Virus record (IMG/VR): IMGVR_UViG_3300046170_000119
Span: 1-25,615 of that record
Direction: 5' to 3' (one strand)
Origin: a virus
DNA: 25,615 bases
Shown here: in pieces, positions 1,455 to 20,916 of the stretch
Numbering within the stretch: position 1 is the first letter of the stretch
Layout: each line of letters opens with the position of its first letter
Position numbers and translations under genes: made by a program
The notes under the pieces: model-generated
Databases searched by the model: none
The model's input: only the letters and a program-made list of their open reading frames with translations
What the model was told of the DNA's origin: nothing

Positions 1455-1654
1455 AGAAATACAGATTTTTTTTTCATTACTATAAAAGGTATAAGTGTAT
1501 GAGTATCCATTTTAAGGGCTCTTGTTTAAGAGCTGAAGATGTTAAGTGTCAGGTACCAATAGAAACTAAATGGAACAAAAATCAACCAAATTTAGTTATG
1601 CGCGGGTTTGCTGAAAGCGTACAAATTAAAAATAATATTTGTTACATAAAATGA
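1451..1654 (+). CDS. Conserved small phage protein
   Basis: A 67-residue basic protein of unknown function. The segment KCQVPIETKWNKNQPNLV, followed by MRGFA, resembles a small family seen in flavobacterial phages. It has three cysteines (C16, C25, C33) but no clear zinc motif. The start overlaps the ATPase stop (ATGA at 1451-1454), and its stop overlaps the next gene's ATG (1651), which supports translation as part of a coupled chain. An internal ATG at 1499 could give a 51-residue form, but the upstream start gives the tighter overlap. No function can be assigned. Confidence 0.65.
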   Translation: MKKYRFFFHYYKRYKCMSIHFKGSCLRAEDVKCQVPIETKWNKNQPNLVMRGFAESVQIKNNICYIK

Positions 1655-2145
1655 AATCACTTGTTGAACTTGCCTACTTAAAGCACAAAGACTGGATTAA
1701 CGTAGTCAAAAGTTTTGGCTGCAATCCTAGCCTAGCCGAAGACATCGTCCAGAGTATGTACTTGCAGTTAATTTGCGACATCCAAAAAGGCTTAGACCTT
1801 TGGTACGGAGACGAAATCAACAGTTACTACGTATATAAAGTATTGCGAGGAATATTTTTAAACACCCACAAGAAACAAGCAAGGGAACTAAAAACCTACA
1901 TAGAAGAGATAAAAGGAGAAATAAAACAAATAGATGACCTATCAATAGACGAGGTACAATACGCCAAGAACAAAAACAAAATAGACAGTATTTTAAAAGA
2001 TATGTACTGGTATGACTCCAAGGTTTTCACTTTAGTTGCTAGTGGGAAGTCTGTAGCCTCACTAAGTCGAGAAACTAAAATTTCTTACTATAGTTTATAT
2101 AATACATATAGGACAGCTTTAAAACACATAAAAGACAATTTATGA
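1651..2145 (+). CDS. Sigma-70-like phage RNA polymerase factor
   Basis: A 164-residue protein. The N-terminal part contains CNPSLAEDIVQSMYLQL, matching the region 2 helix of ECF-like sigma factors (the 'AEDxxQxxF' pattern). The C-terminal part, GKSVASLSRETKISYYSLYN, followed by a basic segment, fits a region 4 helix-turn-helix that would read a -35-type element. Phage sigma factors of this kind redirect host RNA polymerase to middle or late genes. The ATG at 1651 is chosen because it overlaps the preceding stop (ATGA). A TTG at 1639 would add four residues without support. The repeated element found at four late gene starts is a plausible target. That link is inference. Confidence 0.7.
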   Translation: MKSLVELAYLKHKDWINVVKSFGCNPSLAEDIVQSMYLQLICDIQKGLDLWYGDEINSYYVYKVLRGIFLNTHKKQARELKTYIEEIKGEIKQIDDLSIDEVQYAKNKNKIDSILKDMYWYDSKVFTLVASGKSVASLSRETKISYYSLYNTYRTALKHIKDNL

Positions 2146-6627: not shown

Positions 6628-7259
6628 AAATTACTAACGAGGACAATATGGAACTTATGGCAAGGTATGAGGATAATTACTTTGACTTGGCTATTGTAGA
6701 CCCTCCCTATGGTGCTAATGATGCGATAGGTTTAAAAGATAATAAAGGGTGTAAAAAACAAGCAACTAAAAGAACAGGTTACAAAGTTTTTAAAAATGTA
6801 GAACCATCAAAAGAATACTTTGTGGAACTTAAAAGAGTTACTAAACATCAAATTATATGGGGGGTAAACTTTTACAATAATTTTAATTTAAGCGGTGGAC
6901 GTATATGTTGGGATAAAAAAGGTACTGCTTTTGGTAGAGCTGAATTAGCTTATTATAGTAATAGTAAAAGTGTTAATATTTGTGAGATAGTTTGGAATGG
7001 TATGTTGCAGTATGATATGAAAAATAAAGAAGTAAGAATACACCCCACACAAAAACCAGTTAAGTTGTATGAGTGGCTTTTAATGAATTACGCAAAAGAA
7101 GGAGATAAGATACTTGACACTCACTTGGGTTCTGGTTCTATTGCTATTGCTTGCCATAATTTAGGGTTTGATTTAACAGCTTGTGAACTTGATAAAGACT
7201 ACTACAATGCAGCAATAAAAAGAATAGAGCAACACAAAGCACAACAAAGGTTGTTCTAA
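6624..7259 (+). CDS. DNA methyltransferase (adenine-N6 / cytosine-N4, beta-type order), apparently orphan
   Basis: A 211-residue protein. The catalytic motif DPPYG is at residues 26-30, and the SAM-binding motif comes late (KILDTHLGSGSIAIACHNLG, then CELDKDYY), an order typical of beta-class methyltransferases. HPTQKP, the usual motif before the SAM site, is also present. It would methylate A-N6 or C-N4 in a short target, perhaps protecting phage DNA from restriction. No restriction gene is beside it. Its codons end in T much more often (GAT, AAT, TAT) than those of its neighbours, suggesting recent acquisition. The recognition sequence cannot be read from the protein. Confidence 0.85.
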   Translation: MKITNEDNMELMARYEDNYFDLAIVDPPYGANDAIGLKDNKGCKKQATKRTGYKVFKNVEPSKEYFVELKRVTKHQIIWGVNFYNNFNLSGGRICWDKKGTAFGRAELAYYSNSKSVNICEIVWNGMLQYDMKNKEVRIHPTQKPVKLYEWLLMNYAKEGDKILDTHLGSGSIAIACHNLGFDLTACELDKDYYNAAIKRIEQHKAQQRLF

Positions 7260-7316
7260 AAAAAAATAAGTTTGTTTATATATTAATAATTCAGTTAACT
7301 AATTAAAAACTGATTT
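7258..7316 (+). promoter_or_regulatory. Candidate promoter with variant of the phage late element
   Basis: TTATATATTA at 7276-7285 is followed by ATA, like the element at four later gene starts, but here the ATG lies 31 bases further on and the -18 position is an A run rather than AAAAT. It also carries TTTGTTTATAT, shared with 2919-2940. It is probably a promoter for the packaging genes with a normal untranslated leader. Confidence 0.45.
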
Positions 7317-8043: not shown

Positions 8044-8045
8044 CA

Positions 8046-9254
8046 TTGATTAAAGTAAAAAAAAAGTATCTGCCTATAATCTCAAACGATAGTAGGTACT
8101 ATATAGTAAGCGGAGGCAGAGGGTCTGGCAAGTCTTTCTCAATCAATGCGCTTTTAGTGATGCTTACTTACGAGTCTAAACATACAATACTATTTACAAG
8201 GTACACTCTAACGAGTGCTTACATTTCAATTATCCCAGAGTTCTTAGACAAGCTGGAACAGTTGCAAATGACACAGGACTTCCACATAACAAAAGACGAA
8301 ATAATAAATAAAAAGACTGGCAGCAAAATAATCTTTAGAGGTATAAAGACATCAAGCGGAGACCAAACAGCAAACCTTAAATCCTTGCAAGGTATTACTA
8401 CTTGGGTAGTAGATGAGGCAGAGGAACTAACAGACGAGCAGAAGTTCGACACTATAGACCTAAGTGTTAGACAGCAAGGCAGACAAAACAGAGTTATTCT
8501 AATACTTAACCCTACAACCAAAGAACACTTTATATATAGACGTTTCTTTGAGGACAGAGGGGTACAAGAGGGAAGCAATATAAACAAAGGCAATACAACC
8601 TACATACACACCACTTACAAGGATAACTTAGAACACCTATCTAAAAGCTACATTGAGCAGATTGAACAAATGAAGCAGAGACGTCCAGAGAAATACAAAC
8701 AACAAATGCTGGGGGCTTGGATGTCAAAGGCGGAAGGGGTTATATTTAACAACTGGACAATAGGGGAGTTCAAAAGATACAGCGTTAGCGTTTGGGGTCA
8801 AGACTACGGCTTTGCAGCAGACCCTTCGACTTTAGTAGAGTGTAACATAAACACCTCAACAAAGACTATTTATTTAAAAGAGTGCTTTTATCTGCCTAGA
8901 CTTACAACTTCACAAATAGCAGAGCTGAATACTAAATACGCAAAGGACGGCCTTATAATAGGGGACAGCGCAGAACCTAGACTATTAAGCGAAATAAAAG
9001 CCAAAGGCTGCAACGTAAAGCCCAGCATAAAAGGTCAAGGCAGTGTTACTTATGGTATAAGCCTTTTACAAGACTATGACTTAGTTGTAGACCCAGCAAG
9101 CAGAAACCTAATAAAAGAACTCAATAACTACCGCTGGTTAGAGCGAAAGTCAAACACTCCTATTGATAAGTACAACCATCTACTAGACGCTATTAGATAC
9201 GCTGTAGGCTACCAACTACAAAACCCAAACAGAGGGAAGTATATTGTTCACTAA
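8046..9254 (+). CDS. terL: Large terminase subunit (PBSX/Terminase_3 type)
   Basis: A 402-residue packaging motor. The ATPase domain has Walker A GGRGSGKS (residues 23-30) and Walker B TTWVVDEAEEL. The nuclease domain has acidic positions in VWGQDYGFAADPSTLV, LIIGDSAEPRLL and LLDAIRYAVGY, the RNase H-like metal site that cuts concatemeric DNA. The start is a TTG at 8046: the next in-frame ATG lies after Walker A, so an alternative start is required. The gene belongs with the small terminase just upstream. The next gene, at 9283, begins the tail module rather than the portal, which is unusual. Confidence 0.93.
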   Translation: MIKVKKKYLPIISNDSRYYIVSGGRGSGKSFSINALLVMLTYESKHTILFTRYTLTSAYISIIPEFLDKLEQLQMTQDFHITKDEIINKKTGSKIIFRGIKTSSGDQTANLKSLQGITTWVVDEAEELTDEQKFDTIDLSVRQQGRQNRVILILNPTTKEHFIYRRFFEDRGVQEGSNINKGNTTYIHTTYKDNLEHLSKSYIEQIEQMKQRRPEKYKQQMLGAWMSKAEGVIFNNWTIGEFKRYSVSVWGQDYGFAADPSTLVECNINTSTKTIYLKECFYLPRLTTSQIAELNTKYAKDGLIIGDSAEPRLLSEIKAKGCNVKPSIKGQGSVTYGISLLQDYDLVVDPASRNLIKELNNYRWLERKSNTPIDKYNHLLDAIRYAVGYQLQNPNRGKYIVH

Positions 9255-9285
9255 AATAATTTAAAAACGTTTATATATTAGTATG
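9253..9285 (+). promoter_or_regulatory. Bipartite AAAAT / TTATATATTA element at a gene start (copy 1)
   Basis: AAAAT at 9253-9257, then 13 bases, TTATATATTA at 9271-9280, G, and TATG, with the ATG at 9283. The TATATTAG part matches the Bacteroidota -7 box TAnnTTTG at all but one fixed position. The AAAAT box begins inside the terminase stop codon region. This copy begins the tail module. Confidence 0.6.
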
Positions 9286-9939
9286 AAAGTCAACCTAAGA
9301 ATACCAACAAGCCTTAACGAAATAACCCTAGCACAATACCAAGAGTTTGCAAAGCTAGAAGCAGACCTAGACAAAACCAAAGACACAGCGATACAATTAA
9401 AGATTGTTGAGATATTTTGTAAAGTGCCAGAGGTAGTTGTAAGAAATATGAAGGCCACAGACATAGCGGAGATATGCGAAATTATAAACACTATGTTTGA
9501 CACTGAACACCAGCTAATAAATAGGTTTAGACTCAAGGGGATTGACTACGGTTTTATCCCAGAGCTTGACGATATGTCTTTCGGGGAGTATATGGACTTA
9601 GATACTTTTATAAGTGATAACGATAATTTACACAGAGCAGTCAATGTACTATTTAGACCAATAGAACACAAGCGAGGCAACCGATACACAATAAAAGACT
9701 ACAACCCAGACACAAGCGAAATAGCAAAGGACTTCCCACTAGATGCAGTCTTAGGGGCTATTGTTTTTTTTTACAGTTTAGGCAAGGACTTATCACTGGT
9801 TATGCTGAACTCTTTGGACAGCAAGAACGAGAAGGCTTTAGCACAGCATCTAATTTCACAGCAAAGTGGGGATGGTTTAACTCACTCTATGCAATCGCTC
9901 AAGGCGATATTACAAGATTTAAAAATATCACTGAATTAA
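9283..9939 (+). CDS. Tail assembly chaperone, short form
   Basis: A 218-residue protein in the zero frame. It starts with a family pattern of Bacteroidota phages (LRIPTSLNEITLAQYQEF), continues with FIPELDDMSFGEYMDLDTF and NVLFRPIEHKRGNRYTIKDY, and ends in QSLKAILQDLKISLN. Position right before tail completion genes, upstream of the tape measure protein, and the frameshift site at 9764 all fit the lambda G/GT type of tail assembly chaperone, which coats the tape measure during tail assembly. It is transcribed from the element at 9253. The specific chaperone role is inferred from context and the frameshift. Confidence 0.65.
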   Translation: MKVNLRIPTSLNEITLAQYQEFAKLEADLDKTKDTAIQLKIVEIFCKVPEVVVRNMKATDIAEICEIINTMFDTEHQLINRFRLKGIDYGFIPELDDMSFGEYMDLDTFISDNDNLHRAVNVLFRPIEHKRGNRYTIKDYNPDTSEIAKDFPLDAVLGAIVFFYSLGKDLSLVMLNSLDSKNEKALAQHLISQQSGDGLTHSMQSLKAILQDLKISLN

Positions 9940-10025
9940 ATATACATCAATGCTTGACCTACTTAGAATATACAAAAGAAAAAAACCAAATAGAAGCAGC
10001 ACAAATTAAAAACAAGTTTAAATAA
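9771..10025 (+). CDS. -1 frameshift extension of the tail assembly chaperone (GT-like)
   Basis: A -1 shift on the T9 run (9764-9772; slippery heptamer T TTT TTT at 9765-9771) takes the ribosome into a frame open until TAA at 10023-10025. It adds 84 residues to the first 163, a 247-residue protein. The new part includes AKWGWFNSLYAIAQGDITRF, then ITELNIHQCLTYLEYTKEKN, which resembles conserved phage tail sequences. The segment has no ATG of its own, so it needs the shift. It also fills the otherwise empty 92 bases before 10032. A homopolymer sequencing error is the main alternative. Confidence 0.65.
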   Translation, partial: LQFRQGLITGYAELFGQQEREGFSTASNFTAKWGWFNSLYAIAQGDITRFKNITELNIHQCLTYLEYTKEKNQIEAAQIKNKFK

Positions 10026-10031
10026 AAGTAA

Positions 10032-10502
10032 ATGAGCCAACAAGGGATAAGAGGTTTTTACCAACTTACAGAAACAATAGAAACACAGCTACTAGCGGAT
10101 GTTAATGTAAACACCGTCACTACTGGGGACATATACGATATTGACTTATCAAAACAAAGTATCTTCCCTTTGTCGCATATTGTTATAAACTCTGTAACAA
10201 CCCAAGAACAAGTCTTATCTTTTAATATTACTGTAATGGCAATGGATATTGTAGACGAGAGCAAAGAAAAAACAACAGATATATTTAGAGGCAACAATAA
10301 CGAACAAGACGTTTTAAACACTCAATTAGCGGTGCTTAATAAACTTATAATGGTGCTAAGACGAGGGACACTATATAGCGAGAAATTCCAACTTGAGGGC
10401 GACCCTACACTAGAGCCTTTCTATGAGAGGTTTGAGAATCGACTTGCTGGGTTTGCTGCCACAATGGACGTAATAATACACAATGATATTGATATATGCT
10501 AG
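10032..10502 (+). CDS. Conserved tail/neck structural protein (candidate tail terminator)
   Basis: A 156-residue protein with IFPLSHIVINSVTTQEQVLS, then FNITVMAMDIVDESKEKTTD, NEQDVLNTQLAVLNKLI and a closing FENRLAGFAATMDVIIHNDI. This mixed beta/alpha pattern recurs in Bacteroidota siphoviruses next to the gp10-like gene. Size and position suit a tail terminator or tail completion protein capping the tail tube. The ATG follows the frameshift product's stop by six bases, and its stop overlaps the next start. The structural role is inferred from synteny. Confidence 0.55.
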   Translation: MSQQGIRGFYQLTETIETQLLADVNVNTVTTGDIYDIDLSKQSIFPLSHIVINSVTTQEQVLSFNITVMAMDIVDESKEKTTDIFRGNNNEQDVLNTQLAVLNKLIMVLRRGTLYSEKFQLEGDPTLEPFYERFENRLAGFAATMDVIIHNDIDIC

Positions 10503-11002
10503 GGGACAAGTTTTTAAGGGACGAGCTAAACAAGTTTGCTAAGTATGTGATACAACAAAGCCGCAGCAACTTAACTAAGGGCAAAAAGAACGTATCTAAG
10601 GAACTTTACAACTCTTTAGGGTTCAAAGTATCACAAAGCGCAAAACAAACGTCCTTAGCCTTTGAAATGGCAGACTACGGCAAATATCAAGACAAAGGGG
10701 TAAGCGGTACTGAAAAGAAGTATAACACTCCTTACAAGTATACAAGTAAGATGCCACCTGTAAAAGCTTTTGACAAATGGGTAGTAAGAAAGGGAATAGC
10801 ACCCAGAGGGTCTGGGGGGCAGTTTGCAAAGCGAGAGGGCTTGAAGTTTGCAATAGCTAAAACAATATTTAAAAAAGGTATAAGACCAAGTTTGTTTTTC
10901 ACAAAGCCTTTTGAGGCTGCTTTTAAAAGACTGCCAGACGAATTAGTAGAGGCCTATTCAATAGGACTTGAGAAACAGATACAAGTAAACATAAACAAAT
11001 GA
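10496..11002 (+). CDS. HK97 gp10-like head-tail / tail completion protein
   Basis: A 168-residue basic protein. It contains FEMADYGKYQDKGVSGTEKK, then GGQFAKREGLKFAIA and a C-terminal GIRPSLFFTKPFEAAF. The 'YGxYxDxG' strand and the late 'GIxPSxFFxKPF' segment resemble the HK97 gp10-like family, which joins head and tail. It overlaps its neighbours by seven and four bases, in keeping with a translationally coupled tail operon. The family call is by pattern only. Confidence 0.55.
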   Translation: MLGDKFLRDELNKFAKYVIQQSRSNLTKGKKNVSKELYNSLGFKVSQSAKQTSLAFEMADYGKYQDKGVSGTEKKYNTPYKYTSKMPPVKAFDKWVVRKGIAPRGSGGQFAKREGLKFAIAKTIFKKGIRPSLFFTKPFEAAFKRLPDELVEAYSIGLEKQIQVNINK

Positions 11003-12117
11003 GCAAGATTAACGTAAGAAGTCCGTTTTATATTTCAATCACAGCAACAAACCTTACAAGCTGCCAGTTAGAATTATTTATATATACAGGCACTCAAACA
11101 AGCAGCAGACCTACAGCGGCCACTTATACCCTAAATTCTTTTGCAGTCAATAACGTATGTACATTTGAAATAGCTGAACTTGTAAGGGACTATTTTGATA
11201 ACGAGTTTGACGGAGACTACAGCACTTCTATCTTTTGGGTTGACTATAGAACTACAAACACAATACAAACTACTGTAGGGTCTGCAACAGCCTTTACACA
11301 ACTCAAAGGTTTTTACGGCTACGGCTTTTTTGAGGACGGCGTAAACCCAACAAACAACAAAGCGGTATTACAATCAAACACAAAGATAGTCAAGCTAGAT
11401 GACGCCCCAGCGGTTATTGCTGTAGACACTTCCCTAGCGACCCAAGTAACATACCTTAAAAACGGAACGCAAGTATTTACTAAGGCCATAAGTTCAACAA
11501 CAAGCAGCACTACGCAAATAGAATACGTTACAAGCGGTGTAAACGGTTCAGACGAATTCGAGGACAGAGTGATACAAGACGGCGGAACTTTCGAAGGCAG
11601 TGACTGTCTTACTAATTTCTCAAAGGAGTTTACCTTGTTCGACTTTGATACAATACTTGTAGATAGTTCTTTGGGGGTTACAAAACTAACGGTAACAAAC
11701 GAGGAAGAGTGTAAATTCACACCCCTTAAAATAACTTTCATAAATAAATACGGAACACTGCAAGACATCTGGTTTTTTAAACGCTCAAACGAAGCCTTAA
11801 CAACAAAGACAGAGGACTTTAAAAAGAACATCACAAGCGCAGCGAGTTACAACATAAGTAAACACCAAAACAAAACCCTAACAAAAAACGGTAAGGAGAA
11901 ACTAACCTTAAATACTGGTTACTACCCAGAGGCTTACAATGATGTCTTTAAAGAGATGCAATTAAGCGAGGACTGCTGGATAGAGATAGACTCAAAGACT
12001 TTACCTATAAAAGTCACTAGCAGTTCTTTTGCTTACAAGACTCAACTAAATGATAAAATTATAAACTACACAATAGAGGTAGAGTTTGCCTTTGACACTA
12101 TTAATAACGTCCGTTAA
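10999..12117 (+). CDS. Conserved tail/baseplate structural protein
   Basis: A 372-residue beta-rich protein. The region KFTPLKITFINKYGTLQDIW, followed by FFKRSNEAL, and the end, INYTIEVEFAFDTINNVR, match a family recurring in Bacteroidota phage tail modules. The N-terminus starts as a beta strand (VRSPFYISITATN). It starts by ATGA overlap and ends by TAATG overlap with the large protein at 12117, suggesting the two are made together as parts of the tail tip or baseplate. No enzymatic motif is visible. The precise position in the virion is unknown. Confidence 0.6.
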   Translation: MSKINVRSPFYISITATNLTSCQLELFIYTGTQTSSRPTAATYTLNSFAVNNVCTFEIAELVRDYFDNEFDGDYSTSIFWVDYRTTNTIQTTVGSATAFTQLKGFYGYGFFEDGVNPTNNKAVLQSNTKIVKLDDAPAVIAVDTSLATQVTYLKNGTQVFTKAISSTTSSTTQIEYVTSGVNGSDEFEDRVIQDGGTFEGSDCLTNFSKEFTLFDFDTILVDSSLGVTKLTVTNEEECKFTPLKITFINKYGTLQDIWFFKRSNEALTTKTEDFKKNITSAASYNISKHQNKTLTKNGKEKLTLNTGYYPEAYNDVFKEMQLSEDCWIEIDSKTLPIKVTSSSFAYKTQLNDKIINYTIEVEFAFDTINNVR

Positions 12118-14660
12118 TGCAGATAATTGAACTATATATAAGAAACGGTTTAAGATATTACGGCAGTTCTACAAGCACATCTGCAAACAACCTAGTGGAC
12201 GGCTCAAAGGACTTTACAACTGGGGTGCAAGTTGGTTTTGTTGCTGTAAACTTAACAGACAAAACAGAGGCTTTTGTTACCTCTGTTGCTGCAACTACTT
12301 TGGGACTTAGTGCGGATATATTTACTGCTGGGGAGTCTTATATTGTCAAGAGTGATTTTAAACGTTTGGACTTGTTTGAGGACGAGAGTGTAACAATAAC
12401 GGACTCAATAAAAAACGTCAAAGACATAGGTAAAATATTTACACCTTTCTCGCAGCAGTTTAACGTACCAGCTTCCAAGCACAACTCCAAAATATTTAGA
12501 CACTACGAGGATAGCGACATTACTAATAGCTTTGATGCTAGATACAAAGTAGATGCGCTTATAAAACTAAACGGCACAGACTACAAGAAGGGCAAAGTAA
12601 GACTTAACAGCGTATCAATGAAAGACAATAAGCCACACTCTTACAAGTTGGTTTTTTTTGGCGATACCGTAGAACTAAAAGACATCTTAGGAGAGACAAT
12701 GTTAAGCGGCCTGACCTACGACCCTAGCCTAGACTTTGACTACACAAGGGCAAACGTACTAACTAAATTCACAACAGACAATTTAGATGTTTCTTACCCA
12801 CTTATTACGCACACCAAAAATATGCGGTTTACAAATGCTGGATATAAAAGCAACGAGCAGGCACCAACGCTGTTAAACTTTACAGACATAAAGCCAGCTA
12901 TAAAAATCCGAAAAATAATAGATGCGATAGAGACCACATTTAGAGAGATAGAGTTTACGGGGGACTTTTTTAACACCGAGGACTTTAACCGTATTTATAT
13001 GTGGATGCACAGAGAAAAAGGGTTTATGTCAAATGCTACTGAGGGCGGTGGGCAAACTATTTTAGAAGATGTTTTTTACAGACCCGAAGACCCTGGGTTT
13101 ACTGCTATAGGCACAGACAATAGGCCGTATTTTGTTGAGGGCAATTCACTCTTCCCAGAACTAAGCCCTACTATTTTAGTCACATTTTCAATACAGACCG
13201 CCTCTACGGCTAACAATTTTGACATAAGAGTTGAGGGACTTACAGGAAACGTACTTATTGACAGCCCCAACAATACTGGTAGCACAAGTTATACATTTAG
13301 CTACACAATCAACGTAGGCTTTTTTGCTACTGTTGCTTTTAGGTCTATTATCACATCAACTGACACTTTAAACTTAACGCTTTACAGAGTTAGTGTAGTC
13401 TCTGTTTTGGCTGGTATAAACGATACCTACGAAAGTGACAGTCTAGCAATAGCAAATAAAATAGTAATAGGCCGACATATGCCAAAAATGAAAGCTATAG
13501 ACTTCCTTACAAACATATTTAAACTTTTTAATCTAGTAGCTTTTAAACAAGACGATAAAATAAGGGTTTTGCCTTTAGATGACTTTTACAATGAAGGTGT
13601 AAATTACGACATAACAAAATACACAGACGTTACAAAAAGCGACATAGGGAAAGTCTTACAATTCAAAAACATAGACTTTAATTTTAAAAGCAAAAAAACA
13701 TTTCTAGTACAAAAGTCTGACGAACTGCAAGGGGTCAATTTTGCTGGGGAAGACTATAGCCCAGAAAACTCACAATTCAACTCCTTAAACGTAGACGGTT
13801 CAGAATATAAAATCGAGCCTGATTTTGAAAAAATGATGTTTGAGAGATTGTCAAACGAGAACGATGGAACTCTTAGTACAATATGCCAAGGGGCTTTTTT
13901 AGACAAAGACTTTAACCCTACCATTGGCAAACCGCTTCTTATGTATATAGCAAGTCAATCAACAAGCGACACTTTTGTTTTTGGTAATTCTACTGGAAGC
14001 CCTGACAACATAACAACCTACAACAGACCTAGTCAAGTATTAGTACAGAGCGGTGCTGTTGGTGCAGCTTCTGCGGCTTTAAATTTTGGAGTTGAAGCGG
14101 ACGAGTTTTTTCAAGAGGCAAAAGGGACAAACCTTTTAGAGAAATACTACCTTAATTATATTATTAGTGTTTTTGATAGACAAGCAAGAATCAAAAAACT
14201 AGAGGCCTATTTACCTTTGCATATTATTTTAAGTTACAACCTAAGTGACAGATTTATAATAGGTAACAAAGTCTACCGCATCAACTCTATAAAAACAAAC
14301 CTACTGACTAATAAAAGCAGTCTTGAGCTTTACAGTTTAACTCAGAGTGTTACAGGGATAGCCAACAGCCAAACAGACGCACTAGAGAGACTATCTTCTA
14401 TAAGTGTAACATCTAAAAACACTACAAGTATAACGATAGGATGGACGGCTTTAGCTGACCCAGTTGCAAATAATATAACTGGGTATGATGTTTACAAAGA
14501 TGATGTTTTTGTGCAGAGTCTAGCAAACGACAAAGTTAGTGTAGTTTACACAGGACTTACAAGCGGTGTTACATATAAACTTGCAATAAGAGTAAAGTAC
14601 ACAATTAGTAGCACTGTAGCCTATTCACAAGACACTATAATTTTTGCAACAACAGACTAA
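12117..14660 (+). CDS. Large tail-tip/baseplate protein with C-terminal fibronectin type III domain
   Basis: An 847-residue protein. The first 700 residues are beta-rich and match the conserved tail-tip family by pattern (FTPFSQQFNVPASKHNSKIF; a later MKAIDFLTNIFKLFNLVAFK typical of hub-like proteins). The last ~92 residues (ISVTSKNTTSITIGWTALAD, then ITGYDVYKDD and VYTGLTSGVTYKLAIRV) form a clear Fn3 domain. Fn3 domains on phage tails usually bind carbohydrate on the host surface. Its length and position before the tape measure gene suggest a central tail hub or receptor-binding tip. Role inferred. Confidence 0.65.
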   Translation: MQIIELYIRNGLRYYGSSTSTSANNLVDGSKDFTTGVQVGFVAVNLTDKTEAFVTSVAATTLGLSADIFTAGESYIVKSDFKRLDLFEDESVTITDSIKNVKDIGKIFTPFSQQFNVPASKHNSKIFRHYEDSDITNSFDARYKVDALIKLNGTDYKKGKVRLNSVSMKDNKPHSYKLVFFGDTVELKDILGETMLSGLTYDPSLDFDYTRANVLTKFTTDNLDVSYPLITHTKNMRFTNAGYKSNEQAPTLLNFTDIKPAIKIRKIIDAIETTFREIEFTGDFFNTEDFNRIYMWMHREKGFMSNATEGGGQTILEDVFYRPEDPGFTAIGTDNRPYFVEGNSLFPELSPTILVTFSIQTASTANNFDIRVEGLTGNVLIDSPNNTGSTSYTFSYTINVGFFATVAFRSIITSTDTLNLTLYRVSVVSVLAGINDTYESDSLAIANKIVIGRHMPKMKAIDFLTNIFKLFNLVAFKQDDKIRVLPLDDFYNEGVNYDITKYTDVTKSDIGKVLQFKNIDFNFKSKKTFLVQKSDELQGVNFAGEDYSPENSQFNSLNVDGSEYKIEPDFEKMMFERLSNENDGTLSTICQGAFLDKDFNPTIGKPLLMYIASQSTSDTFVFGNSTGSPDNITTYNRPSQVLVQSGAVGAASAALNFGVEADEFFQEAKGTNLLEKYYLNYIISVFDRQARIKKLEAYLPLHIILSYNLSDRFIIGNKVYRINSIKTNLLTNKSSLELYSLTQSVTGIANSQTDALERLSSISVTSKNTTSITIGWTALADPVANNITGYDVYKDDVFVQSLANDKVSVVYTGLTSGVTYKLAIRVKYTISSTVAYSQDTIIFATTD

Positions 14661-14669
14661 TTTACGGAA

Positions 14670-14810
14670 ATGATAAAACTAATACTAGACAATTTAAAAT
14701 ATGCAAACGGCGAAACAGAAAACATCCGTATAGCACAAGGTAAATACAAACTGCCTACGACACTAAAAGAGGGATACAAAGCACTTAAACAAGAGATAAA
14801 ATGGGGATAG
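14670..14810 (+). CDS. Small phage protein upstream of the tape measure gene
   Basis: A 46-residue protein starting nine bases after the tail-tip stop and overlapping the tape measure start by ten bases. It begins MIKLILDNLKYANGETENIR and ends in a basic helix (KEGYKALKQEIKWG). The coupling to the tape measure gene suggests a small tail assembly factor, but no family is recognised. It is real by position and by codon use like its neighbours. Confidence 0.5.
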   Translation: MIKLILDNLKYANGETENIRIAQGKYKLPTTLKEGYKALKQEIKWG

Positions 14811-16546
14811 TAAAAACAGTTAATATAGACGTAAATTCTAAAAAAGCCCAAAAGGACGTTAAAGACTTAGAGAAATCAATAGAGAGTGTAAACAAAGAAG
14901 TCAAAGAGGTAAGCGAATCTAGCAGCGAATTAACAGGGCAGTTAGACAATCTTACGGGCGGTGCAATCTCTAAATTTAAGGGTCTTAGAGGTGGTTTAAA
15001 AAATGTGATAAACAGTTTCAAAAGTCTTAAAGTTGCTATTATAGGGACTGGGATAGGGGCTTTACTTATTGCAGTGGTTGCTTTAGGTCAAGCCTTTACT
15101 AGAAGTGAAGAGGGGCAAAACAAGTTTTCTAAGATACTTGGGGTCATTGGCAGTGTTATAGGGAATCTCTTAGACTTACTCGCAGACTTAGGAGAAAATA
15201 TAATATCTGTTTTTGAAAACCCAAAACAAGCCTTAAAAGACTTCACTAAACTAATTAAAGAAAACCTAATAAACAGGTTTGAGGGTTTGCTTGAGTTATT
15301 CCCAAAACTTGGCAAGGCTATAAGTCTTTTGTTCAAAGGGGAGTTTAGCGAGGCTGGTAAGATTGCTGCTGATGCAGTTGGCAAAGTTACTCTGGGGGTT
15401 GATAGTATTACAGACAGTGTAAGCGGTGCAATAGAAAAAGTTAAAGAGTTCGGAGCAGAGGTTGCAAAAGATGCAGCAAACGCAGCAAAGATAGCAGACC
15501 TAAGAGCCAAGGCCGACAGACTAGATAGACAATTAATAGTAGACAGAGCAAAGGCAGACAGAGACCGAGCCACACTTTTAGAACAATCCGTAAACAAAGA
15601 AAAATTTACAGTACAAGAGAGGATAGCATTTTTGCAAGAGGCAGCAGACTTAGAAGAGAAAATAACAAACCAAGAAATAGAAGCGGCTAGATTAAGACTT
15701 CAAGCCCAACAAGCCGAGAACGCTTTAGGTAAATCAACAAAAGAGGACAAAGAAGCAGCGGCACAATTAGAGGCAAACCTTATACAACTAGAAACAGCAA
15801 GGCTTACAAAACAAAAAGAGGTTACCTCTCAAATAATAGCTTTTAAGGCAGAGGAAGCAGCAGCACTTAAAGCAATAGCAGACCAACAAGCCGCAGATGA
15901 CAAAGAAAGGGCAGACCGAATAGCAGCAGAGGACAAAGAGCGCAAAGACAAACAAGCACAAGAGGATAAAGAAAGAAAAGAAAGACAAATAGAAGTTGAC
16001 AAAATAGTAGGCGAAGCACAGCAGCAAATACAAATGGCGCAGCTAAATAATGCACAAAGAGGTTTTCAATTACTAAGCAGTTTGGCTGGTAAAAACAAAG
16101 GACTTCAAGCCGCTGCAATTATAGGGGAGAACGCAATAGGAATCGCAAAACAAGTTATATCAACTCAGGCCGCAAATAGGGCGGTAGATTTAAAATATGC
16201 TTTAATACCTGGAGGGGTTGCTTTGGCTGCTGCTGAAAAATCAATAAACAGAATTTCTTTAGGTATTGGAGTTGCTTCCTCTGTAGCTGCTACCGCAAAG
16301 GCCTTATCTGCTTTAAAAAGTGGGGGGTCTGCTGCTGGTGCTTCAATTGGTGGTTCTGGAGGTGGTGGAGGCGGTGCAGAACCTCAAGCACCGTCCTTTA
16401 ACATAGTAGGGGCTAGTGATACAAACCAACTAGCAGACGCAATAGGTGGACAGACTCAACAACCAGTACAAGCGTTTGTTGTAGCAAATGACGTTACAAC
16501 CGCCCAGAGCCTTGAGAATAACATAGTAGAAGGGGCTACATTATAA
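14801..16546 (+). CDS. Tail tape measure protein
   Basis: A 581-residue protein with tape measure layout. There is an N-terminal coiled coil (KKAQKDVKDLEKSIESVNKE), two hydrophobic stretches (KVAIIGTGIGALLIAVVALG; ILGVIGSVIGNLLDLLADLG), a long charged coiled coil with three exact-length 11-residue repeats (bases 15890-15988), then an alanine/glycine-rich tail region. The tape measure fixes tail length and leaves the virion during DNA injection. The modest length suggests a short siphovirus tail of under 100 nm by the usual length rule. It is the last gene of the tail transcript, before the element at 16551. Confidence 0.8.
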   Translation: MGIVKTVNIDVNSKKAQKDVKDLEKSIESVNKEVKEVSESSSELTGQLDNLTGGAISKFKGLRGGLKNVINSFKSLKVAIIGTGIGALLIAVVALGQAFTRSEEGQNKFSKILGVIGSVIGNLLDLLADLGENIISVFENPKQALKDFTKLIKENLINRFEGLLELFPKLGKAISLLFKGEFSEAGKIAADAVGKVTLGVDSITDSVSGAIEKVKEFGAEVAKDAANAAKIADLRAKADRLDRQLIVDRAKADRDRATLLEQSVNKEKFTVQERIAFLQEAADLEEKITNQEIEAARLRLQAQQAENALGKSTKEDKEAAAQLEANLIQLETARLTKQKEVTSQIIAFKAEEAAALKAIADQQAADDKERADRIAAEDKERKDKQAQEDKERKERQIEVDKIVGEAQQQIQMAQLNNAQRGFQLLSSLAGKNKGLQAAAIIGENAIGIAKQVISTQAANRAVDLKYALIPGGVALAAAEKSINRISLGIGVASSVAATAKALSALKSGGSAAGASIGGSGGGGGGAEPQAPSFNIVGASDTNQLADAIGGQTQQPVQAFVVANDVTTAQSLENNIVEGATL

Positions 16547-16550
16547 AAAC

Positions 16551-16583
16551 AAAATAAATTAAAAATACTTATATATTAATATG
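16551..16583 (+). promoter_or_regulatory. Bipartite AAAAT / TTATATATTA element at a gene start (copy 2)
   Basis: AAAAT at 16551-16555, 13 bases, TTATATATTA at 16569-16578, A, TATG, with ATG at 16581. The spacing is identical to copy 1. It opens the head gene module immediately after the tape measure stop. Confidence 0.6.
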
Positions 16584-18170
16584 CGAATAGTAGAACTTAT
16601 CATTGACGAAGAGCAAGAAATAGGGATTGAAGCTATTTCAGTTGTAGAAAACCCAGCTATTGAAGAGGACTTTGTAGCCCTTAAATCTCAAGAGTTTAAA
16701 CTTGCAGAGGTAAACAAAGAGAAACGTATTTTATTAGGGGCTTTACTAGTACCAAACAAGCCTATATACAGACGTAACGGCAAAGACGAGTATTATATAT
16801 ATTTCTCAAAAGATACTGTCTTAAAAGCCTCGCAAATGTTCTTACAACAAGGCAAACAAAACAACTCAACCTTAGAACACCAACACAAACTAAACGGATT
16901 GTCTTTAGTGGAGTCTTGGATTGTTGAAGATTCTAAAATGGACAAGACTAAGTTATACGGTATGGAACTCCCTCAAGGGACTTGGGTGGGTGCTGTAAAG
17001 GTAAACAACGAACAAGTTTGGAACGAGTTTGTAAAGACTGGCAGAGTCAAAGGGTTTTCAATAGAGGGCTATTTCGCTGACAAAATGGAGCGACCCAAAG
17101 ACAAAACTCTTAAAGACGATTTAGCTAAGATTGAGGAAGAGGAAGCTGAATACTTACTAAAACAAGTTACAGCAATAATCAAAAAAGACAATCGTTACAA
17201 GAGCGGTAAAAAGACTACTTTAGAAAGTTACACAGACTATCCAGATGCAGTAAAGAACAACGCTCAAAAAGGTATTGACCTTAACAAAAAGGTAAACAAC
17301 AAATGCGCTACAGAGGTAGGCAAAATTAGAGCGCAGCAATTAGCCCAAGGCAAAGCAATAAGCGAAGAGACAATCAAGCGTATGTATTCATTTTTGTCAA
17401 GAGCAGAAGAGTATTACGATGAGACAGACAATGAGGCTTGCGGTACTATTTCTTATTTATTGTGGGGCGGTTTAGCTGGTAAAAGATACGCTGCTAAAAA
17501 ACTAAAAGAGTTCGGGGAGCTGAGTTTGGCCTCAGTTCTTGTTAATGATGACTTCGCTATTATAGACGATAGACTTGCTTACTCAACCGAAGAGAAAGCC
17601 AAAGAAATGGCCTCTAATATAGGATGCGAAGGAATACACCAGCACCAGTATGAGGGTAAAACTTGGTATATGCCTTGTGAGAAACATAGCGTCAATATGT
17701 ACGACAAATGCCCAAAGGGGTATAAGAAAAAAGACGGCAAATGCGTAAAGATGGCAGAGGTAGGAGAAAGAGGCGGTATAAGACCAAGCAAGAAAGCACC
17801 AAAGAGCGACACTAAGAACCCAAACCCTAAAGGCAAAGGAACAGCTAAAGGGGACGCTTCTACAAGTAGAGGGGCAAAGGTATCTAAGGCAGACGAGGCC
17901 ACCTTAAAAAAGAAGTCTGATGACTTTAACGAGAGATACAAAAAAAAGCTAGGGTATGGCGTAAACGTAGGCACTCTTAAAGCTGTATTTCAAAGAGGTC
18001 TAGGGGCTTTTAATACAAGCAGAAGTCCTAGGGTCAAATCTGCCTCACAATGGTCTTTTGCTAGAGTCAATGCGTTTTTATACTTAGTTAAGAACGGCAG
18101 ACCACAAAACCCAAAATATACAGGGGACAACGATTTACTCCCTAAAGGACACCCAAAGAGCGATAAGTAA
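16581..18170 (+). CDS. XkdF-like prohead protease fused to Cys-rich and DUF5824-like domains
   Basis: A 529-residue multidomain protein. Residues ~48-170 match XkdF-like serine proteases: LLGALLVPNKPIY, the histidine region STLEHQHKLNGLSLVESWIV and the serine region VKGFSIEGYF. Residues ~205-315 form a helical domain (ESYTDYPDAVKNNAQKGIDL, then EACGTISYLLWGG) seen fused to other phage head proteins. A Cys/His segment follows (CEGIHQHQYEGKTWYMPCEK, then CPKGYKKKDGKC). The last ~100 residues (FQRGLGAFNTSR, then SASQWSFARVNAFLYLVKNG, ending LLPKGHPKSDK) resemble DUF5824. The protease would process capsid or scaffold. The roles of the extra domains are unknown. Confidence 0.75.
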   Translation: MRIVELIIDEEQEIGIEAISVVENPAIEEDFVALKSQEFKLAEVNKEKRILLGALLVPNKPIYRRNGKDEYYIYFSKDTVLKASQMFLQQGKQNNSTLEHQHKLNGLSLVESWIVEDSKMDKTKLYGMELPQGTWVGAVKVNNEQVWNEFVKTGRVKGFSIEGYFADKMERPKDKTLKDDLAKIEEEEAEYLLKQVTAIIKKDNRYKSGKKTTLESYTDYPDAVKNNAQKGIDLNKKVNNKCATEVGKIRAQQLAQGKAISEETIKRMYSFLSRAEEYYDETDNEACGTISYLLWGGLAGKRYAAKKLKEFGELSLASVLVNDDFAIIDDRLAYSTEEKAKEMASNIGCEGIHQHQYEGKTWYMPCEKHSVNMYDKCPKGYKKKDGKCVKMAEVGERGGIRPSKKAPKSDTKNPNPKGKGTAKGDASTSRGAKVSKADEATLKKKSDDFNERYKKKLGYGVNVGTLKAVFQRGLGAFNTSRSPRVKSASQWSFARVNAFLYLVKNGRPQNPKYTGDNDLLPKGHPKSDK

Positions 18171-18319
18171 TGTTAAGACGAATTAAAAGATTTATAACAC
18201 CAAGTAGAACCAGCCCCAAAGGGGGGCGCAGAGCTTGTCTATGTGAGGACAATACTTATAAGATAGAGTGCTGTGATGGTTCACTAAGGGCGCAAGGGAT
18301 AGGAAAAATATCAAAGTAA
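18170..18319 (+). CDS. Small Cys-rich conserved phage protein (CLCEDNTY...CCDGSLRAQGIG)
   Basis: A 49-residue basic protein overlapping the protease stop (TAATG). The C-terminal half, ACLCEDNTYKIECCDGSLRA, then QGIGKI, is a recurring signature in Bacteroidota phages, usually near the head genes. Four cysteines spaced C-x-C...C-C could bind a metal ion or iron-sulphur cluster. Function is unknown; a small head decoration or assembly factor is possible. Confidence 0.7.
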   Translation: MLRRIKRFITPSRTSPKGGRRACLCEDNTYKIECCDGSLRAQGIGKISK

Positions 18320-18325
18320 AAATGC

Positions 18326-18358
18326 AAAATTAATTTTTAAACATTATATATTAATATG
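18326..18358 (+). promoter_or_regulatory. Bipartite AAAAT / TTATATATTA element at a gene start (copy 3)
   Basis: AAAAT at 18326-18330, 13 bases, TTATATATTA at 18344-18353, A, TATG, with ATG at 18356. It precedes the scaffold and major capsid genes, which need very high late expression. Confidence 0.6.
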
Positions 18359-18949
18359 AAATCAAATGATATGATAACTAAAATCAAAGAGGTTTTAAAC
18401 TTGACAGAGGAAGTCAAGCTAGAACAACTAAAACTTGAGAACGGTACTATTTTAGAGGCCGACTCTTTTGAATCTGGCAAAGAAGTCTTTATTATTACAG
18501 AGGACGAGAAAGTAGCCCTCCCAGTTGGGGAGTATGAACTAGAGGACGGCCGCAGCTTACTTGTTGAAGAGGTAGGCTTAATTGCTGAAATCAAAGCCGA
18601 GGAAGAAGAAAAAGAAGAAGTAGAGGCAGAAGAAGAAAAAGAAGAAATGCAATACGCTACAAAAGAGGAACTAGCAGAGGTTAAAGAAATGATTGAGGAA
18701 ATCAAAGCAATGCTAGAGCCAAAAGAAGAAATGAGTGCTGACGAAATGGGCAACCTATTGACAGAGGAATTGTCAAAACAAGAAATCCCAGACGAGGTAC
18801 AAGTAGAACTAAACAAACCAGCAGCGGAGCCAATCAAGGCAAACCCAGAGGCTGAGACAAACAATATCGGTAAATTTACTTGGGGACAAAACAGAAAGAA
18901 AACAACTGCCGATAGAGTAATGGAGAAAATCTTAAATATTAACAACTAA
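18356..18949 (+). CDS. Probable capsid scaffold protein
   Basis: A 197-residue very acidic protein. A small N-terminal domain (LENGTILEADSFESGKEVFI, then PVGEYELEDGRSLLVEE) is followed by a glutamate-rich coiled coil (EEEEKEEVEAEEEKEEMQYA). The C-terminal end is basic and aromatic (KFTWGQNRKKTTADRVMEKI), as in scaffolds that hold the capsid protein by a C-terminal helix. It lies twelve bases upstream of the major capsid gene, the usual scaffold position. Cleavage by the protease at 16581 is likely but no site can be named. Confidence 0.7.
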   Translation: MKSNDMITKIKEVLNLTEEVKLEQLKLENGTILEADSFESGKEVFIITEDEKVALPVGEYELEDGRSLLVEEVGLIAEIKAEEEEKEEVEAEEEKEEMQYATKEELAEVKEMIEEIKAMLEPKEEMSADEMGNLLTEELSKQEIPDEVQVELNKPAAEPIKANPEAETNNIGKFTWGQNRKKTTADRVMEKILNINN

Positions 18950-18961
18950 AAATAAAATAAA

Positions 18962-19873
18962 ATGAGTGTAACAATTACAAGTTCTTATGCTGGCCAGTTT
19001 GCTGGGAAGTATATCGCAGCAAGTTTATTAGCTGCAAAAACTATCGATGACGGAGCAATAACAGTGCTTCCAAACATCAAATACAAAGCAGCTATGAAAG
19101 TAGGGGCTTTTTCAAACTTAATTAAAGGGGCTTCCTGTGACTTTGACACTGCCACTTCTAGTTTAGCTTTGACAGAAAAAGTCTTGACTCCAAAAGAGTT
19201 ACAAGTCAATATTGACATTTGTAAAAAAGACTTGCACAGTGACTGGGAAGCTGCACAAATGGGCTTTAGTGCTTTTGACAATTTGCCTCCTTTATTCTCA
19301 GACTTTGTTATCTCTAGAGTGGCTGCCGAGGTTGCCTCTTCTACTGAGACATCAATCTGGGACGGTGCTTCTGGTGCTGATAACTTTGATGGACTAAGAG
19401 CCTTAGCCCTAGCGGATGGAACTGTAAACGATGTTACTGGGACTGCTTCAACTTCTGCTAACGTAGTTACTGAGTTGGGGAAAATTGTTGATGCTATTCC
19501 TTCAGGGGTTTACGGTGCTGACGATTTATATATCTATGTATCTCAAAACATCTTTAAAAGTTATGTACGCGCTTTAGGTGGGTTTGCTGCAACAAACAGC
19601 GGTGTAGATGCTAAAAGTCACACTTTCTACAACGGTGGGGAGTTAAGCTTTGACGGTGTTAAATTGTACCCAACAAGCGGACTAAGAGACAACTGCGCTA
19701 TCGCTGCAAGACAATCAAACTTATTCTTTGGAACTGGTCTACTAGATGACAGAAACGAGGTACGAGTTATTGATATGGCAGAGAATGACGGAAGCCAAAA
19801 CGTAAGAGTCGTAATGCGATATACTGCTGGTGTTCAAATCGGAGTTGGTGCAGACGTAGTTCTTTACGATTAA
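18962..19873 (+). CDS. Major capsid protein (HK97-fold)
   Basis: A 303-residue protein placed directly after the scaffold and before a strong terminator. The beginning, SYAGQFAGKYIAASLLAAKT, the middle segment KELQVNIDICKKDLHSDWEA and the end, VRVVMRYTAGVQIGVGADVV, match flavobacterial HK97-like capsid proteins, in which the last segment forms an A-domain strand. Its codon choice (GCT, GGT, AAC) fits high expression. It forms the icosahedral shell. A cleaved N-terminal delta domain is not evident, since the scaffold is a separate gene. Confidence 0.8.
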   Translation: MSVTITSSYAGQFAGKYIAASLLAAKTIDDGAITVLPNIKYKAAMKVGAFSNLIKGASCDFDTATSSLALTEKVLTPKELQVNIDICKKDLHSDWEAAQMGFSAFDNLPPLFSDFVISRVAAEVASSTETSIWDGASGADNFDGLRALALADGTVNDVTGTASTSANVVTELGKIVDAIPSGVYGADDLYIYVSQNIFKSYVRALGGFAATNSGVDAKSHTFYNGGELSFDGVKLYPTSGLRDNCAIAARQSNLFFGTGLLDDRNEVRVIDMAENDGSQNVRVVMRYTAGVQIGVGADVVLYD

Positions 19874-19896
19874 TAACAACAATTAACTAACATAAG

Positions 19897-19926
19897 AAGG
19901 GTGGGCAAAACTGCCTGCCCTTTTTT
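19897..19926 (+). terminator. Rho-independent terminator after the major capsid gene
   Basis: An 11-bp stem (AAGGGTGGGCA paired with TGCCTGCCCTT, two wobble pairs) closes around AAAC and runs into a T tract. It lies 23 bases after the capsid stop and would set the ratio of capsid to tail tube transcripts. Confidence 0.88.
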
Positions 19927-19941
19927 ATTAAATCTAAAAAT

Positions 19942-20481
19942 ATGGCTTGTGCAATCACAAAAGGTAGAGGGGTAGGATGTAAGACCGCCTTTGCTGGAAT
20001 CAACAATATTTACATACTAGACTACAGCGACACTATTGCAGCTTTAGGGGACTCAAGCGGAACAATAACACTGCCTACGGATAACAGTGCAGAGTTCTTT
20101 AAGTTTGAAGTACAAGGGGCTTTAAGTAGCCTTGAGACTGCTGTAACAAGTTCAAGAGATAATGGTACTACTTTTTACGAAAGTACCTTAAACATCACTT
20201 TTCAAAACTTAGACGTAGCAACTCAAGAAGAGCTAAAACTCTTAAACAGAGGAAGAGCGCACTACGTAGTTGAGTTATTTCAAGACGGTGCTGGAAACAC
20301 TAAAAGACTTTTACTTGGCCGAGATAACGGCTGTGAGGTTACTGCTGGAACAATCGTTACTGGTGCTGCCCCTGGAGATTTACAGGGCTTCACTTTAACA
20401 GTTGTAGCCACAGAGGTATTCCCTCCGTTTTTCTGTACTGCTCCAGACGTAGCAAGTGCTTCACCTATTACGCCAGCATAG
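19942..20481 (+). CDS. Probable major tail tube protein
   Basis: A 179-residue protein. The middle, FFKFEVQGALSSLETAVTSS, continues with NGTTFYESTLNITFQNLD, then LLNRGRAHYVVELFQDG and finally PGDLQGFTLTVVATEVFPPF. This strand order and the 'GDLxGFTLTxxxxE' closing segment are typical of tail tube proteins of Bacteroidota siphoviruses. The tail tube polymerises around the tape measure. It lies away from the tail module, between capsid and portal. It is enclosed by two terminators. A decoration protein is an alternative. Confidence 0.6.
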   Translation: MACAITKGRGVGCKTAFAGINNIYILDYSDTIAALGDSSGTITLPTDNSAEFFKFEVQGALSSLETAVTSSRDNGTTFYESTLNITFQNLDVATQEELKLLNRGRAHYVVELFQDGAGNTKRLLLGRDNGCEVTAGTIVTGAAPGDLQGFTLTVVATEVFPPFFCTAPDVASASPITPA

Positions 20482-20503
20482 TAGTTTATTTATATTTAAA
20501 ACG

Positions 20504-20531
20504 AGCCTTCCTTTTTGGGGGGCTTTTTTTT
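20504..20531 (+). terminator. Rho-independent terminator after the tail tube gene
   Basis: AGCCTTCC pairs with GGGGGGCT (two wobble pairs) around TTTTT, followed by eight Ts. Twenty-two bases later the AAAAT/TTATATATTA element starts a new unit, so transcription appears to stop and restart here. Confidence 0.8.
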
Positions 20532-20535
20532 ATAC

Positions 20536-20568
20536 AAAATATTTTAATTTTATTTATATATTAGTATG
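20536..20568 (+). promoter_or_regulatory. Bipartite AAAAT / TTATATATTA element at a gene start (copy 4)
   Basis: AAAAT at 20536-20540, 13 bases, TTATATATTA at 20554-20563, G, TATG, with ATG at 20566. Its placement immediately after a terminator is the best single argument that the element is a promoter. Confidence 0.65.
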
Positions 20569-20916
20569 AAGATTATTACAACAAGCGGCACAAAGGCTTT
20601 AAAGATAATTCCAAGGACTTTTTTTGCTGGAACTATTAATCTAAAACTAACAAACGAAAGTACAGGCGGTGTAGTAAATACAACAGCTACAGCCACAACA
20701 GATAAAAATTATATGAGTTTCACTGGTACTTTTGGCACTCTTATAGAGGGGGAGTTTTACAATTTAGAGGTTTTATTGTCTGGGGCTACAATATACAAAG
20801 ACAAAGTATTTTGCACAGACCAAACAATAGACCAAACAAATAACAATTACTATTCTGTTAATAGTGGAGAATATAACACAGAGGATAGCTTTGATAATGA
20901 TTATATAATTTTATGA
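20566..20916 (+). CDS. Conserved beta-rich phage protein upstream of the portal
   Basis: A 116-residue protein. It reads IITTSGTKALKIIPRTF at the start and ends KVFCTDQTIDQTNNNYYSVN, then EDSFDNDYIIL. This ending is characteristic of a small beta-sandwich family in flavobacterial phages located next to the portal or tail tube gene. A role as a minor structural or decoration protein is likely. It overlaps the portal start by ATGA. The start is fixed by the element at 20536. Confidence 0.65.
   Translation: MKIITTSGTKALKIIPRTFFAGTINLKLTNESTGGVVNTTATATTDKNYMSFTGTFGTLIEGEFYNLEVLLSGATIYKDKVFCTDQTIDQTNNNYYSVNSGEYNTEDSFDNDYIIL

Follow-up and report, generated by a model that had tools for sequence, protein, structure and literature searches.

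A candidate start-codon-fused late promoter and its putative phage-encoded sigma factor in relatives of Nonlabens phages P12024L/S

The closest described parallels to the element discussed here are phage late promoters served by phage-encoded sigma factors. The late sigma factor gp47 of phage 7-11 uses promoters of the form GTAAtg-(16)-aCTA, and gp36 of phiEco32 serves middle and late promoters of the form tAATGTAtA (PMC8948821). The element itself, AAAAT followed by 13 bases, TTATATATTA, a purine (R) and TATG, occurs in four copies, every one at a gene start, in a 25,615-base stretch of DNA, seemingly from a virus of marine bacteria (IMG/VR record IMGVR_UViG_3300046170_000119, positions 1 to 25,615; hereafter the window). 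There is good reason to regard it as the late promoter of a phage lineage akin to the cultured Nonlabens phages P12024L/S, read by a phage sigma factor of the extracytoplasmic function (ECF) type and initiating at the purine at +1. As in phage 7-11, the arrangement predicted here from sequence comprises a phage-encoded sigma factor with region 4, the host core polymerase and several bipartite promoters before late genes; unlike here, the host, genome type and boxes of phage 7-11 are different and its transcripts start 6-9 bp from the promoter sequence, and the word leaderless is absent from the available text on that phage (PMC8948821). Like phiEco32, the lineage would employ a phage sigma factor for middle or late genes, but the phiEco32 promoter has a single element and its sigma factor lacks region 4, whereas two boxes and a predicted sigma4 domain are found here (PMC8948821). 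The authors of the phage 7-11 study expected more pairings of a phage sigma gene with its promoters to be discovered (PMC8948821), and a coding-strand element shared by several structural genes, a feature of such late systems, is present in the window. No description of this promoter was found in a literature search, most subscription papers lying outside its reach.

The nearest cultured relatives are distant: the window's terminase is 55.6% and its portal 36% identical to those of P12024L/S, and no close DNA match to the window was found in the phage collection. These phages (Inhavirus) likewise encode their own protein with an annotated sigma-70 region 2 (gp35, above the Pfam cut-off in P12024L) and carry an element, AAAAC...CGTTAATA, at late gene starts. 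They differ in that gp35 is 21% identical to the window sigma factor over 149 residues, in the box CGTTAATA itself (CGTTAATATA..ATG occurs in 0 of 233 IMG/VR loci of relatives), and in an upstream box lying, by hand count, 3-4 bases further off. In the host group that this kinship would suggest, promoters carry TTTG or TAnnTTTG (PMC6847099, PMC9723704), and 87% of predicted leaders are longer than 10 nt in Flavobacterium johnsoniae, where A at -3 and -6 also promotes translation (PMC6847099). The flavobacterial ECF-type motif SM6 has CGT in its -10 region, a feature shared with relatives bearing CGTTATATA; unlike SM6, which marks a host regulon, the window type has TT where CG stands (PMC9723704).

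The element at gene starts in the window and its relatives

Five sites in the window carry TTATATATTA:
9253..9285, plus strand: promoter copy 1, AAAAT at 9253-9257, TTATATATTA at 9271-9280, proposed +1 at the A of ATG 9283; score 42.0; at the gene after the terminase
16551..16583, plus strand: promoter copy 2, proposed +1 at 16581; score 35.7; before the head maturation protease, XkdF-like
18326..18358, plus strand: promoter copy 3, proposed +1 at 18356; score 27.0; before a scaffold-like gene and then the capsid-like gene at 18962; orthologous starts compared in relatives
20536..20568, plus strand: promoter copy 4, proposed +1 at 20566; score 36.5; before the pre-portal gene and then the portal; bipartite element present at orthologous pre-portal starts
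7258..7288, plus strand: promoter copy 5, leadered, AAAAA at 7258-7262, TTATATATTA at 7276-7285, proposed +1 at 7288, ATG at 7317; score 40.9

Exact forward matches to the pattern AAAATN13TTATATATTARTATG begin at 9253, 16551, 18326 and 20536, with none on the reverse strand and none for the pattern read backwards. The TTATATATTA box by itself occurs five times, against 0.18 expected and a maximum of two over 100 shuffles. The original prediction, made from the letters of the window, had described identical bipartite elements at these four places, with TT at the fourth and fifth spacer positions and at genes without the usual ATGA coupling, and in each respect it was borne out: TT stands in 4/4 copies, and the four genes start 28, 34, 185 and 84 bases past the previous stop. 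One copy had been placed just after a terminator, and the 20536 copy does follow a terminator-like hairpin (20503-20525). What had been said of the fifth copy, at 7276, stands in part. It retains TTATATATTA with no ATG adjacent, but the upstream box reported as missing does exist, as AAAAA at the unchanged -18 spacing, and 31 bases separate the box from the ATG at 7317. An element equally frequent inside genes would have spoken against a promoter; all five window copies are intergenic, apart from the upstream boxes at 9253 and 7258, each of which shares two bases with the preceding stop codon. Scores come from a matrix of 103 copies (99 distinct ones from relatives with exact TTATATATTA, plus four typed variants), which gives 27.0-42.0 at the five sites and 11.3 at the next best place, on the opposite strand; no sixth site appears, with the limit that a matrix drawn almost wholly from exact-TTATATATTA copies would miss strongly changed ones. 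The top score in 40 Markov-1 random sequences was 15.3.

The fixed-spacing search was extended to relatives, 233 IMG/VR loci totalling 2.3 Mb that were gathered in three scans, in some cases more than one per record. Across these, TTATATATTA has 195 forward and 27 reverse occurrences; with an ATG two bases on, the counts are 85 forward and 0 reverse, and AAAAT stands at the exact spacing in 77 of the 85. Removal of identical 40-mers leaves 127 distinct copies, 42 in the ATG class and 85 not before an ATG. The upstream box, on which the ATG class was not selected, reads AAAAT in 37/42, AAAAA in 3 and AAATT in 2, while the 85 non-ATG copies have AAAAA in 45 and AAAAT in 13. Of the latter, the 58 with AAAA as part of their upstream box were kept as the leader class, and the 27 dropped copies include several that lie, by eye, in coding sequence. 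The first ATG to open an open reading frame (ORF) of 45 codons lies 2 nt past the box in 40/42 ATG-class copies (two failed the ORF test) and 14-47 nt past it in the 58 distinct leader-class copies, none falling between distances 2 and 14. T occupies -1 in 42/42 of the ATG class and 98% of the leader class, and a purine (A or G) occupies +1 in both. For the TTATATATTA form, the start codon at distance 2 is ATG in 49/49 distinct forward copies, with GTG and TTG at 0. Because the element is also found 14-47 nt from an ATG, it is very likely a promoter rather than a translation signal, which should not move off its ATG. The two classes share T(-1) and a purine(+1), which falls on the A of ATG, and the four late transcripts are therefore probably leaderless, with transcription likely starting at that A. 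The late promoter reading and a start at or near the ATG, both advanced in the original prediction, are favoured by these leadered copies at the same box spacing, by the shared T-purine step and by the orthologous gene starts described below.

A search of IMG/VR for the exact window pattern gave at least 120 stretches, and a reversed control pattern gave 4. A preset-free count of heptamers at ORF starts, run without a shuffled control, placed the box or its register among the top four words in 21/35 genomes; it was absent from the top four in G016, G020, G023, G024, G026 and the nine most diverged genomes.

Orthologous genes carry the element at their starts. Upstream of the pre-portal gene, compared in 73 of 80 portal loci, CAAA[ATC] plus a downstream box was found in 71/73, the box being CGTTATA in 39, TTATATATTA in 24, CGATATA in 4, CTATATATA in 3 and CGTTAC in 1. 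Of the two misses, one falls where a contig ends; the second, L080, is without such an element. Of the 72 regions that could be tested, 71 gave a forward hit; the reverse strand, shuffled regions and stretches of equal length taken from within the portal gene gave 0 each. In relatives, elements of these kinds mark the starts of the protease, scaffold-like and pre-portal genes, and capsid-like starts bear their own lineage's box in 0/31 listed cases (G028 and G029 do carry TTTATATAAA there). In P12024L (L005) AAAAC...CGTTAATA occurs at 3031, 5412, 24771, 26011 and 27612, and CGTTATTA at 179.

The putative sigma factor and the identity of the downstream box

1651..2145, plus strand: ECF-type sigma factor and proposed reader, 164 aa, sigma2 at about residues 1-85 and sigma4 at about 101-164, assigned by family model and predicted fold

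The protein encoded at 1651 had been put forward as a candidate reader, and its match to ECF sigma factors, its predicted fold and the way box type follows sigma identity favour that role; a phage sigma factor likely reads the element. The ECF sigma model TIGR02937 matches 21/21 family members (best E 1.1e-10). The predicted structure (mean predicted local distance difference test, pLDDT, 82; predicted template modelling score, pTM, 0.47) has two helical parts whose mutual placing is unreliable. Residues 1-74 align with SigR sigma2 (Z 9.2, root-mean-square deviation 2.5, 70 aligned) and residues 101-164 with SigF sigma4 (Z 9.8, root-mean-square deviation 2.0, 63 aligned), and ECF sigma entries are among the best fold matches. 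The protein is predicted to consist of sigma2 and sigma4 only, an ECF-type architecture. A sigma profile run against the sequences of solved structures returned nothing significant, with a sigma factor only at E 0.89, and a single-sequence tblastn of the phage collection gave no match at E 0.01, though P12024L has such a gene, so that this test lacks reach. The sigma factor is present in 34/50 records.

In the proposed mechanism, host RNA polymerase core carrying the phage sigma factor (1651-2145) would bind the element, sigma4 reading the upstream AAAAT box (-30) and sigma2 reading and melting TTATATATTA (-12 to -3). The first transcribed base would be the purine two bases past the box, which is the A of ATG in 4/5 window copies and would yield leaderless structural-gene transcripts; the fifth copy, in the terminase small subunit region, would give a leader of ~29 nt. 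Binding, start site, late timing and leaderless translation are proposed here from sequence comparison.

The downstream box recodes across relatives (TTTATATATTA, CGTTATATA, CGATATATA, CTATATATA) and the upstream box stays. Boxes were compared with sigma identity in 33 fetched records, the window and P12024L. The TTATATATTA box stands at -12 in all six records whose sigma factor is at least 60% identical to the window's, with terminases 29-89% identical in the five where one was found, while four records with 80-84% identical terminases but 40-49% identical sigma factors have CGATATA or CGTTATA. These two boxes also occur with sigma factors up to 85% identical to each other, and the TT-type genomes G006 and G008 show single CGATATA or CTATATA heptamers as well. 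With five classes of box label, the area under the curve (AUC) against pairwise identity is 0.739 for sigma, 0.725 for pre-portal, 0.672 for portal and 0.539 for terminase; values above that of sigma were obtained for AAA (0.759, 13 genomes), ERF (0.893, 10) and SSB (0.898, 11). A two-class test (TT versus CG), picked after the five-class result and with box labels set by eye, used 24 genomes with sigma, leaving out G015 and nine genomes to which no box was assigned. It gave an AUC of 1.000 for sigma (0/500 label shuffles), 0.603 for terminase (63/500), 0.516 for capsid (188/500), 0.508 for tape measure and 0.656 for protease. A count by eye of the 75 bases past the terminase, at loci with a measured sigma and a visible promoter, found TTTATATAT(T/A) at 25/25 loci with sigma 67-94% identical, ten of these with terminase at 30-32%, and a CG box at 5/5 loci with sigma 40-44% identical despite terminase at 72-84%.

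Several observations weigh against recognition by this protein. The window sigma factor matches TIGR02937 over residues 14-164 at E 3e-7 and 30.2 bits, under the cut-off of 42.9, and scores 15.1 in Pfam against a cut-off of 24. Foldseek with the 1651 model returned no match at E 0.001, and Z near 9 is modest and for helical models can reflect a common arrangement. No sigma match was found in 16/50 records, all of 9.9-24.8 kb, which may be fragments. None of these boxes stands at -12 in nine fetched genomes, G034, G035, G040, G041, G044-G046, G048 and G049, which have strongly diverged sigma factors and terminases of 65-69%. In the two-class test the box is tracked as well by pre-portal and scaffold-like proteins (AUC 1.000) and portal (0.992) as by sigma, and early genes near sigma are not far behind (AAA 0.912, ERF 0.932, SSB 0.950; 9-12 genomes), so linkage or shared descent could underlie the tracking. 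In the sigma tree all N71 proteins group in a single clade (96/98) and those of the CT type in a second (100/99), the CG types being the remainder, which means that the link between box and residue represents few independent events, not dozens. Furthermore, 29/164 sigma positions, spread across the protein, differ strongly between types, and positions 68, 71 and 74, discussed below, were chosen after the fact.

Alternative readings and a possible residue code

A translation initiation signal of the Bacteroidetes kind, with A at -3 and -6 before the AUG of longer mRNAs, was named as the rival in the original prediction and now appears very improbable. The element does put A at both positions, as raises translation in F. 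johnsoniae (PMC6847099), and the ATG distance is constant in the four window copies; against this, 58 distinct copies stand away from their ATG by a variable distance, the lineage's box is missing from the capsid-like starts listed above, and conservation extends to -30 with a box that varies by lineage. Recognition by host RNA polymerase, with sigma-A or a host ECF sigma, or by some other phage factor, leaving the 1651 protein uninvolved, is improbable to a lesser degree. Host ECF-type promoters of a CGT-type class do exist in Flavobacterium psychrophilum (PMC9723704), and sigma is not alone in tracking box type, which the portal, pre-portal and scaffold-like proteins do as well, but the box differs among phages with 80-84% alike terminases and unlike sigma factors, and 20 stretches with the exact window pattern were found in 84,980 prokaryote genomes, in taxa scattered by title. 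The element is like host sigma-A promoters in that its A/T-rich downstream box ends a few bases before the start (PMC6847099, PMC9723704). A host sigma-A promoter was nonetheless rejected as a candidate, TAHHTTTG being found on the plus strand at 0/5 window sites (one lies on the minus strand within copy 3). A scan of 6000-25615 for E. coli-type sigma-70 promoters gave 63 sites against 41.6 expected and was uninformative.

It is unlikely, with a chance still worth bearing in mind, that the promoter is as proposed and the true start lies several bases off, with short leaders on the mRNAs or initiation downstream of these ATGs. The shared T-purine step is the sole guide to placement, and leaderless transcripts make up just 5.5% of mapped mRNAs in F. 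psychrophilum (PMC9723704); a start at least five bases upstream would, however, fall within the box, one downstream would cut the AUG, and beyond distance 2 the nearest ORF-opening ATG in the distinct copies examined is at 14.

If the element is a promoter read by the phage sigma factor, residues that choose the box may be visible. A comparison of 32 TT-type rows (G003/L235 and G004/L229 counted twice) with 17 CG-type sigma factors found I/N/K at positions 68/71/74 in 32/32 of the former and L/D/R in 17/17 of the latter, all three positions sitting in the helix predicted to hold region 2.4. Among the segments measured, the predicted recognition helix of sigma4 differs least between the types (overlap 0.77 versus 0.47 for sigma2). 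Distinct promoters, countable for 60/135 distinct sigma factors, number 55 TT, 0 CG and 4 other with N71; 46 CG, 1 CT and 5 other with D71; and 10 CT and 2 other with Q/S/A71. The Q/S/A71 clade has CTATATA boxes, and Q71 also occurs in distant sigma factors without a recognised box. A wider and noisier box scan gave 97 TT and 23 CG for N71, 70 CG, 5 TT and 2 CT for D71, 6 CT, 8 TT and 3 CG for Q/S/A71 and 1 TT for R71, with 1 CG in all on the reverse strand; many of the mismatches resemble, by eye, conserved coding stretches or A/T-rich starts. In the same scan, where the A of CT boxes is fixed by the search pattern, position 64 was compared with the box: T64 went with 33 T and 1 A, Q64 in CG boxes with 10 A and 2 T, I64 with 10 A and 9 T, M64 with 4 T and V64 with 17 A and 10 T. 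The close pair G028 and G029, with sigma factors 85% identical, have Q and T at 64 and CGATATA and CGTTATA boxes respectively; G028 also has one CTATATA.

Taken alone, a code at positions 71 and 64 is suggestive. The fuller proposal takes the phage family as a natural series of sigma-promoter recodings with a readable protein-DNA code, and joins this to a promoter fused with the start codon: N71 would go with TT, D71 with CG and Q/S/A71 (one clade) with CT at -12/-11, Q64 would tend to go with A and T64 with T at -10, and both sigma4 and the upstream box would hardly change. The initiating A would be both the transcript start and the first base of the AUG, with A at -3 and -6 aiding translation on read-through RNA. 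This combined proposal is tentative, its probability placed a little short of even, and was marked down slightly because of the mixed Q/S/A counts in the wide scan.

Neighbouring genes and wider significance

The genes served by the four start-codon copies, and the terminators near them, are as follows:
9283..9939, plus strand: gene served by copy 1, matching phrog_32199 (function unknown)
16581..18170, plus strand: gene served by copy 2, head maturation protease-like (PF14550)
18356..18949, plus strand: gene served by copy 3, termed scaffold-like from its position and a weak match to phrog_24921
20566..20916, plus strand: gene served by copy 4 (pre-portal), ATGA-coupled to the portal gene at 20913
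19899..19926, plus strand: terminator-like hairpin and T run after the capsid-like gene
20503..20531, plus strand: terminator-like hairpin (20503-20525) and T run before copy 4

The gene at 19942 starts about 15 bases past the first of these T runs (region 19899-19942) without a promoter copy; the terminator may leak, or another signal may serve the gene. Downstream of copy 5, the consecutive genes 7317-7778 and 7771-8043 share the first residues MDKRKFN, and the earlier of the two has matches to endonuclease families as well; it looks as though a small-terminase-like gene had received a homing nuclease, or had its start copied by one.

The terminase region of relatives shows some variety. No late box was found within 75 bases past the terminase in L088, L093, L094, L097, L099, L102, L175 and L207; L088, L099, L102 and L175 carry host-like TATATTTG or TATCTTTG in its place, which would fit insertion of an additional gene together with its promoter. 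The terminase of L200 and L201 (sigma 69%) is followed by CGTTATATATT(C/T)G, read as a host-type box, and both share a TTTATATAT(T) box further on. Stray AA, AT and TG box labels were checked in eight loci, and L495, L501 and L119 have CG boxes at the terminase-region promoter. Leaders from this promoter (e.g., L087, L090, L091 and L119) often open with the similar words TTGAATAATCAA and TTCAGTTAAC, in TT- and CG-type phages alike; leader hairpins there are weak and inconsistent. In P12024L, small minus-strand genes at 2750-2980, 5123-5365 and 25649-25945 stand back to back with three late promoters and have host-like boxes upstream, TATATTTG twice and TATATTGC at the third. G048 has CGTAAATA before its protease gene, perhaps a further box variant.

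The comparison offers a putative sigma factor with its promoter for many uncultivated phages, a large group akin to the cultured Nonlabens phages, and late operons in this group become callable from sequence. Its prediction is that late mRNAs are systematically leaderless, in bacteria among which such transcripts seem rare and Shine-Dalgarno signals are absent, and it assembles comparative material on a question still open, the choice of -10 sequence by ECF sigma factors.

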